A stretch of 64,000 bases of DNA from Gammaproteobacteria bacterium (lineage in GTDB: Bacteria > Pseudomonadota > Gammaproteobacteria > Burkholderiales > Rhodocyclaceae). The translations under genes and the position numbers were made by a program. Positions 15,417 through 58,836 of the stretch are shown piece by piece. The stretch's first letter is position 1, and the number at the start of each line of letters is the position of its first letter. The notes beneath the pieces are model-generated. The model made no database searches. It saw nothing but the letters and a program-made list of their open reading frames with translations, and had not been told where the DNA came from. The DNA lies in NCBI GenBank assembly GCA_018825305.1, contig JAHJEO010000024.1:124001-188000 (forward strand). The letters are read 5' to 3'.

Positions 15417-15490
15417 GCGGGTGTCGTATAACGGCATTACCTGAGCTTCCCAAGCTCATGAAGAGGGTTCGACTCCCTTCACCCGCTCCA
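15417..15490 (+). tRNA. tRNA-Gly (anticodon CCC)
   Basis: The 74-base cloverleaf has acceptor stem GCGGGTG/CACCCGC, a D arm with TATAACGGCATTACC, anticodon arm TGAGC-TTCCCAA-GCTCA with anticodon CCC, T arm AGGGTTCGACTCCCT and an encoded CCA (15488-15490). It reads GGG codons. It has its own promoter and is followed within 20 bases by the ssrA promoter. Confidence 0.96.
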
Positions 15491-15509
15491 CGCATCTGTG
15501 CCATGAGCC

Positions 15510-15538
15510 TTGAAACCGGGGCACTTCGGACCCATAAT
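15510..15538 (+). promoter_or_regulatory. Promoter of the permuted ssrA gene
   Basis: TTGAAA at 15510-15515 and CATAAT at 15533-15538, 17 bases apart, place transcription start near 15545, immediately before the acceptor piece of the tmRNA. Confidence 0.75.
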
Positions 15539-15545
15539 GTCTGCA

Positions 15546-15801
15546 TGGTTGTAACTCCGGCAAACTGGAGGCGTTCTGGACAGGGGTTCGATTCCCCTCA
15601 CCTCCACCCAAGAGTATTGATGGCAAAGTTTTCTTGGGTGGGGGTGCACTGGCTTCGACAGGGCGAACGAAGGTAAGCAGGCAACTCGTCAGGCGATCGA
15701 CGTTAATGAAGCAAATCTCTAAACGCCAACGATGAGCGTTTCGCAATCGCCGCTTAAGGCCTTTGCCGAGGCTGCTTGAGCCTTGTTACCAAAGAAAAGC
15801 C
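15546..15801 (+). ncRNA. ssrA: Two-piece (circularly permuted) tmRNA
   Basis: tmRNA rescues stalled ribosomes and tags the nascent peptide for proteolysis. The order is permuted. The acceptor piece comes first, with T arm AGGGG-TTCGATT-CCCCT (15582-15598) and 3' acceptor strand CACCTCC-A (15599-15606). A short excised spacer follows. The coding piece then begins GGGGGTGCACTGGCTTCGACA at 15640, whose first seven bases pair with CACCTCC. The tag frame at 15725-15757 reads ANDERFAIAA then TAA, the betaproteobacterial tag type. Ends are approximate. Permuted tmRNAs are known in Betaproteobacteria; this copy shows the arrangement directly. Confidence 0.93.
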
Positions 15802-15804
15802 GGT

Positions 15805-15842
15805 GGGGGCACAGTTTCGACTGTGTCCCCATCGTCATTTTT
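15805..15842 (+). terminator. Rho-independent terminator of ssrA
   Basis: The stem GGGGGCACAG/CTGTGTCCCC (15805-15814 and 15821-15830, loop TTTCGA) is followed by ATCGTCATTTTT. It ends the tRNA-ssrA region before the convergent binding-protein gene. Confidence 0.8.
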
Positions 15843-34491: not shown

Positions 34492-35385
34492 ATGGTGAAG
34501 CTGTCGTTATCGAATCTCTCCTTCGGCGATTTTGTTGCAGCACATAGTCTTGCACTTGGCATTACAGTTTCGGTGCTACTGCATGGCACGACGCTGTCTG
34601 TCAATTTCGTTTTCCCTGGCACGCCAGCTACCAAGGAACGCGCCCTCGACGTCATCCTCGTCAATAGCAAGAGCACCACCCGGCCGACCAATGTCCAGGC
34701 CAAGGCCCAGGCCAACCTCGACGGCGGCGGCAATACCGACGAGGATCGTCGCGCCACCACGCCGCTGCCGGTGTCGAAGCAGACCAAGGAAGGCGACAGC
34801 CTGGTCGACGCCAAGCGCCGCGTCGCCCAGCTCGAAGCGCAGCAGCGCGAGATGATGACGCAGCTCAAGAGCCCAAAGGCCACGGCGGCGGCGGCCAAGC
34901 ACAACGACCCGATACCGCCGGCGCCGCTGACGCCGCCCAATGTCTCCGGCCTCGACCTCGCCAGCAGCGCCATGGCGGTGGCCCGGCTCGAAGGCCAGAT
35001 CGCCCGCAACATCGAGGAATACAACAAGCGCCCGCGCAAGAAGTTCATCGGCGCCCGCACCGAGGAGTACCGCTTCGCCCAGTATGTCGAGGACTGGCGG
35101 CAGAAGGTCGAGCGCATCGGCAACCTCAACTATCCCGAAGCCGCGCGCGGCAAGATGTACGGCAGCCTGGTGCTGACGGTGATCATCAAGGCTGACGGCA
35201 CGCTCGAGCGTGTCGACATCAACCGGCCGTCGGCGCACAAGGTGCTCGACGACACGGCGCGGCGCATCGTGCAGATGGCCTCGCCCTACGCGCCCTTCCC
35301 CTCGAACATCGCGCGCGACACCGACATCCTCGAAATCACGCGCACCTGGACCTTCACCAGCGCCGACCAGCTGCGCTCGGACTGA
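34492..35385 (+). CDS. tonB: TonB-like energy transducer protein
   Basis: This 297-residue inner-membrane protein has one N-terminal membrane span (SLALGITVSVLLHGTTLSVNFVF, about residues 19-41) and a periplasmic linker with proline patches (PIPPAPLTPPNVSG) and a coiled-coil-like stretch (AKRRVAQLEAQQREMMTQL). A C-terminal TonB domain follows (NYPEAARGKMYGSLVLTVIIKADGTLERVDINRPS). It should pass proton-motive force to outer-membrane receptors. No exbBD or receptor gene is nearby. The gene is followed directly by intercistronic repeat copy A, which leads into aroE. Confidence 0.85.
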   Translation: MVKLSLSNLSFGDFVAAHSLALGITVSVLLHGTTLSVNFVFPGTPATKERALDVILVNSKSTTRPTNVQAKAQANLDGGGNTDEDRRATTPLPVSKQTKEGDSLVDAKRRVAQLEAQQREMMTQLKSPKATAAAAKHNDPIPPAPLTPPNVSGLDLASSAMAVARLEGQIARNIEEYNKRPRKKFIGARTEEYRFAQYVEDWRQKVERIGNLNYPEAARGKMYGSLVLTVIIKADGTLERVDINRPSAHKVLDDTARRIVQMASPYAPFPSNIARDTDILEITRTWTFTSADQLRSD

Positions 35386-35389
35386 TGAT

Positions 35390-35467
35390 ATGGCCCCCAC
35401 GCTCACATTCGTTCGCTGCCCCCACTGGGGGCGCATGACCTCTTGGGGCGGCCCGGCGAGGTCATGA
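35390..35467 (+). repeat. Intercistronic coupling repeat, copy A (tonB-aroE)
   Basis: This 78-base element fills the gap between tonB and aroE. Its ATG (35390) opens four bases after the tonB stop and encodes a 25-residue frame ([15 protein letters not shown]...) whose TGA (35465-35467) overlaps the aroE ATG (ATGA). It contains CCCCC-ACT-GGGGG and a second stem CATGACCTC (35434-35442)/GAGGTCATG (35458-35466) around a TTGGGGCGGCCCGGC loop. The second stem includes the aroE start codon. It is the most diverged copy of the three. Confidence 0.8.
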
Positions 35468-36261
35468 CCGACCGCTACGCCGTCTTCGGCAACCCGATAG
35501 GACACTCGAAGTCACCCCGCATCCACGCGCTGTTCGCGCAGCAGACTGGTCAGGACATGGACTACGCGGCGATCCTTGCCTCGGTCGATGGCTTCGCGGC
35601 GAGCATTCGTGACTTCGTCGCAGGCGGCGGCCGCGGCGCCAATGTCACCGTCCCCTTCAAGGAAGAGGCCTTCCGCCTCGCCACCGAACTGACGCCACGC
35701 GCCCAGGCAGCCGGCGCGGTCAATACGCTGAGCTTTGACAGCGGACGGATTCGTGGCGACAACACCGACGGCGCGGGCCTGGTGCGCGACATCGCGGCCA
35801 ATCGCGGGGCAACCATCGCCGGCAGCCGCGTCCTGATTCTCGGCGCTGGCGGCGCGGCGCGCGGGGTGATCCTGCCGCTTCTGGAACAGCAGCCCGCCGC
35901 GGTTTTCGTCGCCAACCGCACGGCGGAAAAAGCCGCCGGACTCGCCACGACCTTCGCGGTCGGCGGTGGCGGTTTCGACGCACTGGCCGGCCGCGCCTTC
36001 GACCTCGTGATCAACGCTACCTCTGCAGGGCTGGCCGATGCCGCCCTGCCGCTGCCGGCAGCCGTGTTCGCCCCCGGCTGCCTCGCCTACGAAATGCTCT
36101 ACGGCCGCGACACGCCTTTCATGGCCCAAGCCAGTGCAGCGGGTGCCACGGTCGCCGACGGACTCGGCATGCTGGTCGAGCAGGCGGCCGAGGCCTTCTT
36201 CGTCTGGCGTGGCGTGCGCCCCGACACGGCGCCGGTACTGGCGGAACTCCGGCAGGGATGA
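35464..36261 (+). CDS. aroE: Shikimate dehydrogenase
   Basis: This 265-residue NADP enzyme reduces 3-dehydroshikimate in aromatic amino-acid synthesis. The N-terminus is [20 protein letters not shown], the catalytic Lys is K66 in [11 protein letters not shown], and its Asp partner is in [10 protein letters not shown]. The NADP loop is [16 protein letters not shown], and [12 protein letters not shown] and [14 protein letters not shown] complete the family pattern. The ATG at 35464 sits in the repeat-A hairpin and overlaps the mini-ORF stop. Its own stop overlaps mtgA (ATGA). Confidence 0.96.
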
Positions 36262-53308: not shown

Positions 53309-53789
53309 CGCCGCCGAACTCTGCACGCATCTGGCCGCCGCCATGCGGCCGGAAATCACGCCGCAAACCGCCCTGATCGGCATCCACACCGGCGGCGTCT
53401 GGATCGCCGAATGGCTGCACCGCGAACTCGGCATCCAGCAGCCGCTCGGCAGCATCGATGTCGCCTTCTACCGCGACGACTTCAACCAGCGCGGCCTGCA
53501 CAAGGGCACCAAGGCCTCGAACATTCCTTTCGACGTCGAAGGCGCGCACATCGTCATCGTCGATGACGTGCTCTACACCGGCCGCACCATCCGCGCCGCC
53601 CTCAACGAGCTGTTCGACTACGGCCGGCCGGCGCGGATCGACCTCGCCGTGCTGGTCGATCGCGGCGGCCGCGAACTGCCCATCGCGGCGACCTGGTGCC
53701 CGCAAGCGCTTGCGCTGCCAGCCAGCCAGACCCTGGTGCTGGAGCGCGACGACGCGGCACGGCTTTCCTTGCGGGTGACAGAGAAATGA
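53283..53789 (+). CDS. pyrR: PyrR, pyrimidine regulator/uracil phosphoribosyltransferase
   Basis: This 168-residue PRTase-fold protein has the PRPP motif [20 protein letters not shown] and the upstream [15 protein letters not shown] and FYRDDFNQ segments of PyrR. In Bacillus it is an RNA-binding attenuation regulator; in proteobacteria its regulatory role is less clear and uracil phosphoribosyltransferase activity may matter. It overlaps ruvX (26 bases) and the pyrB start (ATGA). No PyrR-type anti-terminator is obvious upstream. Confidence 0.93.
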
Positions 53790-54760
53790 CGCGAAACCCC
53801 CAGCTCAACAAGCACGGCGAACTGCAGCACCTCATCACCCTCGAGGGCCTGTCGCGCGAGATCCTCGCCGCGATCTTCGATACCGCCGAACCCTTCGCCG
53901 AGGTCGCCGAGCGCGAAATCAAGAAGGTGCCGCTGCTGCGTGGCAAGAGCGTATTCAACCTGTTCTTCGAGAACTCGACGCGCACCCGCACCACCTTCGA
54001 GATCGCCGCCAAGCGCCTCTCGGCCGACGTCATCAACCTCAACATCAGCACCTCCTCCGCCTCCAAGGGCGAGTCGCTGCTCGACACCGTCGACAACCTG
54101 GCGGCGATGCAGGCCGACATGTTCGTGGTGCGCCACGCCTCGAGCGGCGCACCCTACCTGATCGCCCAGCACCTCGCCGCCACCGGCCGCGACCACATCC
54201 ACATCGTCAATGCCGGCGACGGCCGCCACGCCCATCCGACGCAGGGCCTGCTCGACATGTACACCATCCGCCACTACAAGAAGGACTTCACGCGGCTGAC
54301 GGTGGCGGTGGTCGGCGACCTGCTGCACTCGCGCGTGGCGCGCTCCCAGATCCACGCCCTGCAGGCGCTGGGCGTGCCGGAAGTGCGGGTCATCGGTCCG
54401 CGCACCCTGTTGCCCACCGGCGTTGTCGAAATGGGCGGACGCGGCAGCCTGCGCGTCTTCCACGACATGCGCGAGGGCCTCAAGGGCGTCGACGTGGTGA
54501 TGATGCTGCGCCTGCAGAACGAGCGCATGGCGGGCGCCCTGCTGCCCAGCCCGCAGGAGTACTTCAAGTACTACGGCCTGACGCCGGAAAAGCTGGCACT
54601 GGCCAAGCCCGACGCCATCGTCATGCATCCGGGGCCGATGAACCGCGGCATCGAGATCGACTCGGCCGTGGCCGACGGCGCCCATTCGGTGATCCTGCCG
54701 CAGGTCACCTTCGGCATCGCGGTACGGATGGCAGTGATGAGCATGCTGGCAGGGAACTGA
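53786..54760 (+). CDS. pyrB: Aspartate carbamoyltransferase catalytic subunit
   Basis: This 324-residue enzyme forms carbamoyl-aspartate in pyrimidine synthesis. [20 protein letters not shown] holds the carbamoyl-phosphate STRT motif, [13 protein letters not shown] the 80s loop, [12 protein letters not shown] the HPTQ motif, and [11 protein letters not shown] the C-terminal signature. The start overlaps the pyrR stop. It is the class whose ATCase assembles with an inactive dihydroorotase homologue, here encoded next. Repeat copy B separates the two. Confidence 0.97.
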
Positions 54761-54762
54761 TT

Positions 54763-54852
54763 ATGGCCCACCACGCTCGCAAACCCAGCTCGCTGCCCCC
54801 CACCGGGGGGCGTTTGCCTCCTTGGGGCGGCCCTGCGGAGGCAAGACCATGA
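54763..54852 (+). repeat. Intercistronic coupling repeat, copy B (pyrB-pyrC')
   Basis: This 90-base element starts two bases after the pyrB stop. Its ATG (54763) encodes 29 residues (MAHHARKPSSLPPTGGR...) and its TGA (54850-54852) overlaps the pyrC' ATG (ATGA). It has CCCCCC-ACC-GGGGGG, then stem TTGCCTCC (54814-54821)/GGAGGCAA (54837-54844) around a TTGGGGCGGCCCTGC loop. GGAGG in the 3' arm is seven bases before the pyrC' ATG and would be its Shine-Dalgarno. Confidence 0.85.
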
Positions 54853-56144
54853 AAATACATATCAAGAACGGCCGCGTCATCGACCCCGCCAACGCCATCG
54901 ACCGTCGTGCCGACGTCTTCATCGCCAAGGGCAAAATAGTCGGCGTTGGCGACACGGCGCCGGCCGACTGGGGTGGCCATGGCGCCAATGCCACCATCGA
55001 CGCGTCCGACTGCATCGTCTGCCCCGGCCTGGTCGACATCGCCGCCCGCCTGCGCGAGCCGGGTTTCGAATACCGGGCCACGCTCGAATCCGAAATGGCT
55101 GCCGCCGTGGCCGGCGGCGTGACGCGGCTGGCCTGCCCGCCGGACACCGACCCGCCGCTCGATGAACCCGGCCTGGTGGAAATGCTGCGCCACCGCGCGC
55201 GGCTGCCGGGCTTCGCCCACGTGCATCCGGTGGGCGCGCTCACCGTGCAATTGAAGGGCGAGCGCCTCACCGAAATGGCCGAGCTGGCCGAGGCCGGCTG
55301 CGTCGCCTTCGGCCAGGCCAACCGTTCCATCGTCGACACCCAGGTGCTGCTGCGCGCGATGCAGTACGCCGCCACCTTCGGCTTTCCGGTGTGGCTGCAG
55401 CCGCAGGACCCCTTCCTCGCCCGCGATGGCGTGGCCCATGACGGCGAGATCGCCGCCCGCCTCGGCCTCGCCGGCATCCCGGTTGCGGCCGAGACCATCG
55501 CCCTGGCCACCATCCTCCATCTGGCCCGCGAAACCGGTGCCCGCGTGCACCTGCGGCGCATTTCCTCGGCCGCCGGGCTGGAGATGATCGTCGCCGCGCG
55601 CGCCGCCGGCATCGGCGTCAGTTGCGACGTCACCATCAACCACATCCACCTCTGCGACGAGGATATCGGCTTCTTCGACCCGCATGCCCGGCTCGATCCG
55701 CCGCTGCGTGCGGCAAGCGATCGCGACGCCCTGCGCGCCGGGCTGGCGTCCGGCGCAATCAATGCGCTCTGTTCCGATCACACCCCGGTCGACGACGATG
55801 CCAAGCAGACGCCATTCGACGAAGCCGAACCCGGCGCGACCGGACTCGAACTGCTGCTGCCGCTGACATTGAAGTGGGCGACCGAACTGAAGCTGCCGCT
55901 GGCCACCGCGCTGGCGCGCGTAACCGCCGACCCGGCACGCATCCTTGGTGTCGGCGGCGGCACGCTCGCCATCGGCACAGCGGCGGACATCTGTGTCTTC
56001 GACCCACAGGCAACCTCCCGCATCAGCCGCGAAACTCTGAAGAGCCAGGGCAAGAACACGCCCTTCCTCGGGCAGGAACTCAAGGGCCGCGTCCGCTGTA
56101 CCCTGATCGAGGGTCACCTCGCCTACGACGGCGCCTTCGCCTGA
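54849..56144 (+). CDS. pyrC: Dihydroorotase-like ATCase partner PyrC' (probably inactive)
   Basis: This 431-residue amidohydrolase-fold protein is of the dihydroorotase type (MKIHIKNGRVIDPANAIDRR, LREPGFEYRATLESEMAAAV, CSDHTPVDDDAKQTPFDEAEPGATGLELLLPL). The metal motif normally reading DxHxH after PGL is here PGLVDIAARLREPG, so both His ligands are missing. That matches the non-catalytic PyrC' that Pseudomonas-type ATCase needs for assembly (family knowledge). An active pyrC must lie elsewhere. The ATG at 54849 overlaps the repeat-B mini-ORF stop. Confidence 0.9.
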   Translation: MKIHIKNGRVIDPANAIDRRADVFIAKGKIVGVGDTAPADWGGHGANATIDASDCIVCPGLVDIAARLREPGFEYRATLESEMAAAVAGGVTRLACPPDTDPPLDEPGLVEMLRHRARLPGFAHVHPVGALTVQLKGERLTEMAELAEAGCVAFGQANRSIVDTQVLLRAMQYAATFGFPVWLQPQDPFLARDGVAHDGEIAARLGLAGIPVAAETIALATILHLARETGARVHLRRISSAAGLEMIVAARAAGIGVSCDVTINHIHLCDEDIGFFDPHARLDPPLRAASDRDALRAGLASGAINALCSDHTPVDDDAKQTPFDEAEPGATGLELLLPLTLKWATELKLPLATALARVTADPARILGVGGGTLAIGTAADICVFDPQATSRISRETLKSQGKNTPFLGQELKGRVRCTLIEGHLAYDGAFA

Positions 56145-57039: not shown

Positions 57040-57339
57040 CTACCCGACGCCAAGCCGCTGCCGGACATGGGCCGGATCCGGCGTGCCGCCAGCGCCGACT
57101 TTTACCCGCTTGGCGCGTGAGGACTCGCCGCTGACGAGAAGTACCTGTGACTTCGCCACGCCCAGCCGCTCGGCAAGAAATGCCAGCAGGCAGGCATTGG
57201 CCTTGCCATCCACCGGCGGCGCGGCGAGTCGTATCTTCAGGGCTTCGCCGTGGCGGCCGACCACTTCGGTCCGGCGGGCGCCGGGCTGGACGTGCAGTCT
57301 CAGAACGACGCCATCCGGCGTGGCAACGAGCCAGCTCAC
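57040..57339 (-). CDS. yggU: YggU/DUF167 family protein
   Basis: This 99-residue protein of unknown function belongs to DUF167. VVLRLHVQPGARRTEVVG, ALKIRLAAPPVDGKANACLLAFLAERLGV and VSGESSRAKRVKV are the family pattern. The start is GTG at 57339, overlapping the yggT stop, in the conserved proC-yggT-yggU order. The C-terminus (KVGAGG) is encoded by the complement of an exact 17-mer repeat. Confidence 0.92.
   Translation of the reverse strand: MSWLVATPDGVVLRLHVQPGARRTEVVGRHGEALKIRLAAPPVDGKANACLLAFLAERLGVAKSQVLLVSGESSRAKRVKVGAGGTPDPAHVRQRLGVG
57087..57103 (+). repeat. Dispersed 17-mer repeat, exact copy 6 (inside yggU)
   Basis: CGCCAGCGCCGACTTTT preceded by GGCGTGC lies antisense to yggU, which reads its complement as KVGAGG in the weakly conserved C-terminus. 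Confidence 0.85.
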
Positions 57340-57938
57340 ATGCCGAGGCCGAAGGCCATGCCACGCAGGCTGTCGAGAACCATCAGCAGAACCTGCAGCA
57401 GCAACAGCAGGGCCAGCGGCGACAGGTCGATGCCGCCCAGTGGCGGAATCATGCGCTGGAACGGCGCAAGCAGCGGTCGCGCCAACTGGCTGAAAAAGGG
57501 CGCCAGCGGGGCATGGGGGTTGATCCACGACAGCAAGGCGGTAACCAGCACCACCATCATCGCCAGATAGATGGCGAGGCGCGCCACCTCGATCAGGGCG
57601 CTGGCCATCAGCGATACCAGGATGCCGCCGCCCGCACCGGCTGCGCCCATCCAGGTCATGCCCCCCATCGGCCCGAGCGGCGAGAGCGCGTAGGCCAGCG
57701 CCAGAAAGGCGAGTTGCGCCAGCCACGCCAGCAGCAGGCTGGCAAGGTCGAGGCCGAACAGGCCCGGCACCATCCTGCGCAACGGCAGCACCGCCCAGTC
57801 GGTGACGGCGATGACGAACTGGCCGACGGGATTGCGGAAGGACACCCGCGCCCATTGCAGGATGAACCGTGCCAGCAACAGGGCGGCAAGAAAGTCGCAG
57901 GCGACCTGGGCAATGAATAGAACGATGCGGGTCAGCAT
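57336..57938 (-). CDS. yggT: YggT family membrane protein
   Basis: This 200-residue inner-membrane protein has four to six hydrophobic helices in two similar halves (FIAQVACDFLAALLLARFIL, LALLLLLQVLLMVLDSLRG). The repeated motif RFILQWARVSFRNPVGQFVIAVTDWAVLPLRRMVPG and its second-half equivalent LSWINPHAPLAPFFSQLARPLLAPFQRMIPP are typical of YggT/YlmG. Relatives influence cell shape and osmotic tolerance; the mechanism is unknown. Its ATG shares the A of the repeat-C mini-ORF stop. Confidence 0.93.
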   Translation of the reverse strand: MLTRIVLFIAQVACDFLAALLLARFILQWARVSFRNPVGQFVIAVTDWAVLPLRRMVPGLFGLDLASLLLAWLAQLAFLALAYALSPLGPMGGMTWMGAAGAGGGILVSLMASALIEVARLAIYLAMMVVLVTALLSWINPHAPLAPFFSQLARPLLAPFQRMIPPLGGIDLSPLALLLLLQVLLMVLDSLRGMAFGLGM

Positions 57939-58024
57939 CAGTCCATGCCCCGCTGGGCCGCCCCGAGGGGCATGCGCCCCCCCGTGGGGGGCAGCGAGCT
58001 GATTTTGCGAGCGTGGGGGGCCAT
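57938..58024 (-). repeat. Intercistronic coupling repeat, copy C (proC-yggT)
   Basis: This 87-base element fills the whole gap. Its ATG shares the last A of the proC stop (TAATG), it encodes 28 residues (MAPHARKISSLPPTGGR...), and its TGA shares its A with the yggT ATG (TGATG). Hairpin CCCCCC-AC-GGGGGGG is followed by stem CATGCCCC/GGGGCATG around TCGGGGCGGCCCAGC. It is on the minus strand, co-oriented with both flanking genes. Confidence 0.85.
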
Positions 58025-58836
58025 TAGTCTTTCCCCATCAGGTCGCCCAGCTCGCGGCCACGGCGGTCGGCAGCCGTCACGCCGCGACCGATGGCGGCGG
58101 CGATGGCATCGCGCATGAAGGAATCCAGCGCCGCCTCCGTCGTTCCGCCCTTGGAGGTGACGCGCTGGCGCAGCACGGCAATGGACTCGGTGCTGCTTTC
58201 GGCCAGCCTGGATGCGCCGACGAAGGTCTCGACCGCCAGCCGCCGCGCGGCAGCGGCATCGAAGCCGAGTTCGCGCGCCGCCGACTCGAGCGCCTCGATG
58301 AAATAGAAGACATAGGCCGGGCCGCTGCCGGAAACGGCGGTGACGGCATCCATCTTCGCCTCGTCGTCGATCCACAGGGTGGTGCCGACGGCACCGAGGA
58401 TTTTCTCGGCCATGGTGCGGCCCTCGCGATCGACACTGGGGTCGGCATAGAGGCCGCTGATGCCGGCGCCGATCAGCGCCGGCGTATTGGGCATGGTGCG
58501 CACCAGCCGGGTGTAACCGCCGAGCCAGCGGCCGATGTCGGCCAGGCGCAGGCCGGCGGCGATGCTGATGACCAGCTGGCCCGACATGTGACTGGCTAGC
58601 GGCCCCAGCGCCTCCCTCATGGCCTGCGGCTTGACCGAGAGGACCAGCGCTTCGCAGTTCATCGCCGCCGCGTCGGCAGTCGCCGCGCAACGCACGCCGA
58701 AGGCTTCGGTCAGGCGCTCGCGCGCCTCATCCACCGGCTCGACCACCTGGATGCCGGCGACCGAGAAGCCCTGCTTCTTGAGTCCGCCGATAAGTGCGGT
58801 GGCCATATTGCCGCCGCCGAGAAAAGTGATTTTCAC
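58024..58836 (-). CDS. proC: Pyrroline-5-carboxylate reductase
   Basis: This 270-residue enzyme makes the last step of proline synthesis with NAD(P)H. MKITFLGGGNMATALIGGL is the Rossmann N-terminus; ALVLSVKPQAM, VISIAAGLRLADI and VRTMPNTPALIGAGISGLY follow, and DAVTAVSGSGPAYVFYFIEAL is the signature. The start is GTG at 58836, overlapping the yggS stop. The stop overlaps the ATG of repeat copy C. Operon: yggS-proC-repeat-yggT-yggU. Confidence 0.96.
   Translation of the reverse strand: MKITFLGGGNMATALIGGLKKQGFSVAGIQVVEPVDEARERLTEAFGVRCAATADAAAMNCEALVLSVKPQAMREALGPLASHMSGQLVISIAAGLRLADIGRWLGGYTRLVRTMPNTPALIGAGISGLYADPSVDREGRTMAEKILGAVGTTLWIDDEAKMDAVTAVSGSGPAYVFYFIEALESAARELGFDAAAARRLAVETFVGASRLAESSTESIAVLRQRVTSKGGTTEAALDSFMRDAIAAAIGRGVTAADRRGRELGDLMGKD

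Follow-up and report, generated by a model that had tools for sequence, protein, structure and literature searches.

The window analysed here, a stretch of 64,000 nucleotides, contains three copies of a short repeat (A, B and C), each located between two genes read in the same direction: a tonB-type gene and aroE, pyrB and pyrC', and proC and yggT, respectively (Table 1). Each copy possesses a mini-ORF of its own. Its ATG lies 4 nt past the tonB stop codon in copy A and 2 nt past the pyrB stop codon in copy B, and shares a base with the proC stop codon in copy C (TAATG). At the distal end, the terminal TGA overlaps the next start codon, as ATGA at aroE and pyrC' and as TGATG at yggT. The three intercistronic copies with their coordinates, the starts at the upstream stop codon and the frames of 25–29 codons running into the next gene had been reported in a first-pass annotation, and all of these features, including the junctions, have been confirmed.

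Table 1. Repeat copies, their hairpins and the flanking genes in the window.
Feature	Position	Strand	Location or basis
Copy A, F1 element with mini-ORF (25 codons)	35390..35467	+	tonB-aroE junction
Copy A, middle hairpin (CCCCC/GGGGG)	35417..35433	+	predicted fold
Copy A, 3' hairpin	35434..35466	+	predicted fold and family covariation
Copy B, F1 element with mini-ORF (29 codons)	54763..54852	+	pyrB-pyrC' junction
Copy B, middle hairpin	54794..54812	+	predicted fold
Copy B, 3' hairpin	54813..54845	+	predicted fold; core TTGGGGCGGCCCTGCG at 54822-54837
Copy C, F1 element with mini-ORF (28 codons)	57938..58024	-	proC-yggT junction
Copy C, 3' hairpin	57944..57974	-	predicted fold
tonB-type gene, upstream of copy A	34573..35385	+	Pfam PF03544 (TonB C-terminus)
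aroE (shikimate dehydrogenase), downstream of copy A	35464..36261	+	Pfam
pyrB (aspartate/ornithine carbamoyltransferase), upstream of copy B	53786..54760	+	Pfam
pyrC' (amidohydrolase family), downstream of copy B	54849..56144	+	Pfam
proC, upstream of copy C	58024..58836	-	Pfam
yggT, downstream of copy C	57336..57938	-	Pfam

The arms of the 3' hairpin of copy A, CATGACCTC and GAGGTCATG, flank the core loop, and the 3' arm of copy B contains GGAGG 7 nt upstream of the pyrC' ATG. The next start codon is located inside the last predicted hairpin in copy A, and 3 nt and 5 nt beyond it in copies B and C. Copy A had been described as more diverged with the geometry retained. The geometry is indeed kept, but the difference is not a simple divergence: copy A represents a distinct subtype, with a head one C shorter and a middle hairpin shorter by two, which reads another frame in the middle of the element and returns to frame at the loop. 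Taken singly, the copies in the window have modest folding z-scores (-1.8, -1.9 and 0.0), and the structural case therefore rests on covariation. Within the window, the three exact core copies alone stand out from shuffled sequences; at three mismatches there is no excess (25 matches against 25.7 in shuffles). An Rfam scan of the window gave no repeat match above the gathering score, only two tmRNA models and one tRNA; a betaproteobacterial tmRNA gene (15496-15837) adjoins a tRNA (15417-15487).

In silico analysis of the host genome (G000; 3.16 Mb in 29 contigs) revealed 42 exact copies of the 16-nt core, TYGGGGCGGCCCNGCG, and 95 matches to the covariance model R1 at E<=1, of which 60 have E<0.001. 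Grouped by the sequence that precedes the core, the copies fall into the subfamilies F1, F1L, F2 and F3. F1 is the element of the first-pass annotation, with units (head to arm) of a mean 73–79 nt and a GC content of 0.74–0.79; F1L is longer, at 98–123 nt, and usually has an additional internal hairpin. The 3' hairpin is common to F1/F1L, F2 and F3, and the heads are unrelated. The loop of this hairpin is near-invariant, whereas its stem varies yet stays paired: in 25 F1 copies, two-sided changes are found at 7/7 outer-stem pairs. Covariation over the whole F1 structure amounts to 0.311, compared with 0.105 for shuffled controls and no more than 0.110 for the slid structure; the corresponding values for F2 (18 copies) are 0.288, 0.137 and at most 0.130. 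The F1 and F2 stems vary even within one genome with complementarity kept, unlike the remainder of the element. No terminal inverted repeat of the MITE kind was seen by eye in alignments A1 and A2. The F3 copies (L006, L034, L045, L049, L057) are about 150 bp long, have the 3' hairpin and mostly begin shortly after a stop codon; they may represent a separate repeat family.

Comparison with sister genomes was attempted at 35 F1, F1L and F2 loci, and the orthologous junction was readable at 30 of them. At all 30 the element is absent from at least one relative. It is an insertion relative to the sister species, and the earlier suggestion of a mobile or spreading element is borne out on an evolutionary timescale. 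The smallest element-free gap is at most 12 nt at 25 of the 30 loci, including 14 overlaps, two of which (-28 and -21) depend on downstream starts called within the element, leaving 12 of the 14 and 23 of the 25 as firm; at the remaining five loci it measures 15–87 nt. The empty pyrB-pyrC' and tonB-aroE junctions in genome G519 read CTGACCATG and CTGAAATG, respectively, and the empty proC-yggT junction in G672 reads TGATG. Since the two genes overlap or lie no more than 12 nt apart in a relative at 25 of the 30 loci, the insertion is one that keeps translation continuous; it does not join the genes, as had been proposed, because they are already this close without it.

A 4-nt overlap is present in element-free relatives at L023, L035, L036, L038, L056 and L064, and gaps at other loci. 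At the F2 loci among these (L035, L036, L038) the single overlap occurs in both G519 and G671, and ATGA flanks the insertion on both sides in the host, which indicates that the overlap was duplicated by the insertion. Most tight F2 copies likewise have an ATGA or GTGA overlap on both sides, and the empty sites read have a single one. The arms of the 3' hairpin gave no match by eye to the empty site at the loci inspected. In G671, the tonB-aroE junction, the site of copy A in the window, holds a 768-nt gap instead (L132), which by eye resembles a vapB/vapC-type antitoxin-toxin pair.

Flanking genes and downstream starts were called with a home-made gene caller that uses codon usage and was trained on the window, and a mini-ORF ending within -15 to +6 nt of the next start was counted as a bridge. 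The F1/F1L set comprised 139 copies from seven genomes, after exclusion beforehand of copies lacking the CCCC..GGG middle hairpin (e.g. L001) and with only some of the 59 R1 matches of G671 analysed. From this set, 105 copies are flanked by co-directional genes that point the same way as the element (34 dropped), 92 of these are tight (13 being far from a gene), and 84 have a start and a separate downstream gene, the other eight having been dropped because the called gene begins within or next to the element. Bridges are formed by 75 of these 84 mini-ORFs: 34/37 in the host genome, 19/20 in G519, 12/16 in G671, 3/3 in G670, 5/6 in G107, 1/1 in G224 and 1/1 in G070. Read from the same start, the two alternative frames bridge in 3/74, 1/40, 2/32, 0/6, 1/12, 0/2 and 0/2 cases, respectively. 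For the genus, represented by the first four genomes, this gives 68/76 bridges against 6/152 in the other frames, so that the preservation of the frame and of both junctions, first claimed for the window, holds across copies.

Permutation of start phases among the 76 genus copies gave 41.4 +/- 3.1 bridges against the 68 observed, a number reached in 0 of 20,000 permutations. By genome, 19.6 were obtained against 34 in the host and 12.1 against 19 in G519; G671 alone is weak (9.4 +/- 1.0 against 12, p=0.03). The eight genus failures consist of three in-frame fusions, a 364-codon run-on (L307), two mini-ORFs ending 22 and 41 nt early, one at -16 and one out of frame. The commonest spacing to the next start in the host genome is -4 (13/34), and all three loop frames are used among the 75 bridging copies (50, 18 and 7). 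Shine-Dalgarno pairing at the downstream starts is slightly stronger, with a median of -6.3 kcal/mol (n=68) against -5.6 kcal/mol for window genes (n=60; p=0.001). A location outside operons, random orientation and broken frames are not the pattern seen for F1 in the genus: 97 of 123 copies lie between co-directional genes in the gene direction and 6 in the opposite one, and 11 are called inside genes. At L001 and L232 the mini-ORF is fused in frame to the downstream gene, by eye ispG at L001, giving it a new N-terminus.

Only eight orthologous pairs with both sites filled occur among these copies, so most copies are separate insertions; they are nevertheless not fully independent, because subfamilies inherit both ends together. 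Five of the eight pairs differ by multiples of three (21, 39, 27, 39 and 24 nt) and one is equal in length. The differences in the last two are not a multiple of three; one of these pairs has a picked ATG followed by an immediate stop, and the other includes the L307 run-on.

The F2 copies follow the same rule in both orientations. Twelve of the 14 co-directional copies in the host genome are tight and all 12 bridge (6 forward, 6 reversed); a search with model R2 in G519 and G671 gave 12 co-directional copies, of which the six tight ones all bridge (4 forward, 2 reversed). Altogether 18/18 tight junctions are bridged, against 0/36 in control frames. Gap length varies between 103 and 181 nt and is congruent to 1 modulo 3 in 17 of the 18, as two 4-nt overlaps require. 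The single gap that does not fit is that of L501, where the left end overlaps by 1 nt and the right end not at all. A 4-nt overlap (-4) is present at both ends in 15 of the 18. Non-tight F2 copies (2 of 14 co-directional copies in the host, 6 of 12 in G519 and G671) have no single-ORF bridge. Two of the latter six form the relay at L502 (G671:C191), where two tandem reversed copies give two successive mini-ORFs in the order gene - ATGA - 38 codons - ATGA - 39 codons - ATGA - gene; the other four are without a bridge. Among F3, 3 of 9 co-directional forward copies bridge and most do not. Under the same rule, 8 of 37 element-free co-directional gaps of 60–200 nt are bridged.

The repeat occurs well beyond the host genome. 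A 15-letter core was found in 57 of 399 genomes of the order, some with a single match, where the reversed control pattern gives single matches in about ten genomes; it was also found in 43 of 121 genomes of the relatives sample. A class-wide R1 search gave matches in 4 of 274 genomes, the host among them. Among the matches listed, named records belong to Hydrogenophaga, Variovorax, Xenophilus, Polaromonas, Acidovorax, Rhodoferax, Comamonas, Trinickia, Azoarcus, Achromobacter (Bordetella family), Sulfurisoma and Curvibacter, and none of the 119 named stretches listed is from Bordetella. Two MAG stretches labelled Desulfovibrionaceae and one labelled Gammaproteobacteria are perhaps mis-binned. 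The first 80 of the 119 named stretches were tested. Of 80 copies in named Burkholderiales, 25 are called inside genes and 18 are tight and co-directional, 11 of these 18 being bridged against 5/36 in the control; the tight-junction rule is strongest in the genus of the window. Tandem arrays are common outside the genus, with copies in 7 of 20 stretches of family f175, which were partly chosen for tandems (periods 60 and 82–91). L094 and L382 also hold tandem copies.

These features point to BRE, the Beta-proteobacterial Repeat Element. According to the accessible text of its description, BRE is GC-rich, 75–91 bp at full length, dispersed as well as arranged in tandem arrays, with some copies reaching a few bases into the end of an ORF and some within coding sequence; it is listed in Polaromonas, Rhodoferax, Acidovorax and Azoarcus, an 80-nt transcript is reported for one Bordetella copy, and its function is said to need further investigation (Hot et al. 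2011, PMC3110155). The length and GC content of the F1 units, the same four genera and tandem arrays with little or no spacer all agree. The difference is that the accessible text contains no mini-ORF, coupling or target site (PMC3110155). None of five sequence motifs sought was present in that text. A published BRE copy adjoins lexA in Bordetella; at 37 LexA-match loci in two genera of family f175, not established as Bordetella, the core was found at none. The repeat is probably BRE, matched by description, together with relatives sharing its 3' hairpin. A full-text literature search returning mostly titles and the beginnings of abstracts gave no description of mini-ORFs in BRE.

An open frame is not in itself evidence of selection. 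In the host genome 5.00 of six frames are open against 5.03 in equally open shuffled sequences (76% GC), and openness was rejected as such evidence since composition explains it. On the sense strand, stop triplets are rarer than in shuffled sequences (25 against 54.5), in contrast to antisense ones (113 against 119). What is unexpected is thus the matching of start and stop frames together with the absence of stop triplets from the sense strand only. The likely explanation is a small, mobile, structured intercistronic repeat that inserts at tight stop/start junctions and keeps the ribosome path intact, from which we infer translational coupling. Insertion at a start/stop overlap would leave such an overlap at either end. 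Provided that the length fits, a ribosome that has finished the upstream gene could then re-initiate on the mini-ORF and cross the element, melting the hairpins; the next start codon lies within the last of these or immediately after it. On stopping in the next overlap, the ribosome would restart on the downstream gene. Selection would remove copies in which this path is broken, because the operon would be uncoupled or polarly silenced, and the repeat could spread at little cost. The selected entity would be the ribosome path and not the peptide.

The mini-ORF may alternatively provide anti-polarity, merely keeping a GC-rich spacer translated against Rho, with the start overlap inherited and idle. 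In-frame fusions and mini-ORFs ending 13–41 nt before the next start (L066, L273, L086, L366, L376, L392), both of which leave the spacer translated without a coupled restart, are in line with such a role, but an idle overlap accounts poorly for the prevalence of the -4 spacing, for the 4-nt overlaps at both ends of tight F2 copies and for the position of the next start in or just past the last predicted hairpin. This reading is possible, though doubtful. It is rather unlikely that the hairpins act in mRNA stability, in processing or as a small RNA with the mini-ORF as a passenger, since in a mere passenger the frames of start and stop would not agree in copies of different length and orientation, and the reversed F2 copies, which give complementary RNA, bridge nonetheless; the strongly covarying 3' hairpins of F1 and F2 and the 80-nt BRE transcript speak for such an activity. 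Very unlikely is coincidence or inheritance, by which one master element happened to fit and GC richness keeps the frame open, with no selection on single copies. The shuffled level of openness, the joint carriage of both ends by subfamilies and the result for G671 alone are compatible with it, against which stand the many lengths, the three loop frames, both orientations and the in-frame length changes at five orthologous pairs. A functional peptide family, suggested by the peptide MAPHARK..SSLPPTGGR..PWGGPA common to copies B, C and many others, is hardly credible and was rejected, as 18/75 bridging copies use the LGAA loop frame and 7/75 LGRP, and the reversed F2 peptides are unrelated. The peptides thus differ among three frames and the reverse strand, and it is the ribosome path that is conserved.

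Mycobacterial interspersed repetitive units (MIRUs) are short mobile repeats with the target DTGA, ends that overlap both flanking genes, tandem copies and a single orientation to genes. As stated in the accessible text of a 2025 review, they insert at start codons, and their internal ORF is coupled at -4 nt with likely minimal impact (PMC12548453). The statement that no such repeat class had been described was consequently mistaken: MIRUs work likewise (PMC12548453), and the repeat itself is probably BRE (PMC3110155). Because MIRUs already couple by an internal ORF, the kind of element is known. The window family resembles them in that (i) its mini-ORF also overlaps the downstream start at -4, the commonest spacing, and (ii) it also inserts at start/stop overlaps at six loci, other loci having gaps. 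It differs in that (i) F1 has nearly one orientation (97 against 6), whereas F2 in the host genome is found in 6 forward and 6 reversed copies, (ii) it belongs to another phylum, and (iii) compared by description, it has covarying hairpins and unrelated heads on one 3' hairpin. Within the literature searched, the bridging in this repeat family, the orientation-independence of F2, the shared 3' hairpin, the length range and the tandem relay appear to be additions.

A bolder, unlikely proposal is that of a SINE-like system in bacteria, in which three or more families differing in their heads would share a 3' hairpin used in trans by the machinery, and either this machinery or later selection would place copies into overlaps either way, duplicating them and extending a coupled mini-gene relay, convergent with MIRUs.

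If the preferred reading of a path-preserving insertion is true, a widespread repeat of Betaproteobacteria lives in operons cheaply by preserving translation across itself, and together with MIRUs it would point to a strategy by which small repeats have more than once managed to survive in densely packed operons. About thirty natural pairs of insertion and empty site are available for coupling tests, including pyrB-pyrC', tonB-aroE and proC-yggT as well as junctions before genes reading by eye as atpG, carB and accC. The repeats would then also provide naturally occurring linkers with which genes could be expressed in a coupled manner.

Other structured repeats are less similar. BOX, ERIC and BIME are operon repeats that can affect mRNA, and some BOX copies form expressed ORFs; systematic bridging of start and stop codons is not described for them in the accessible part of the source (PMC3049150). 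Rickettsia palindromic elements (RPE) are palindromic repeats located in frame within protein genes, according to the portion of text available (PMC10969869). They differ from F1 and F2, which are mainly intergenic with their own start and stop, and are resembled by one locus of the host genome, L050 (G000:C17:22936-23186), where a called gene carries three tandem 81-bp F1 copies in frame. One frame is open through all three of them, with 27 codons each.
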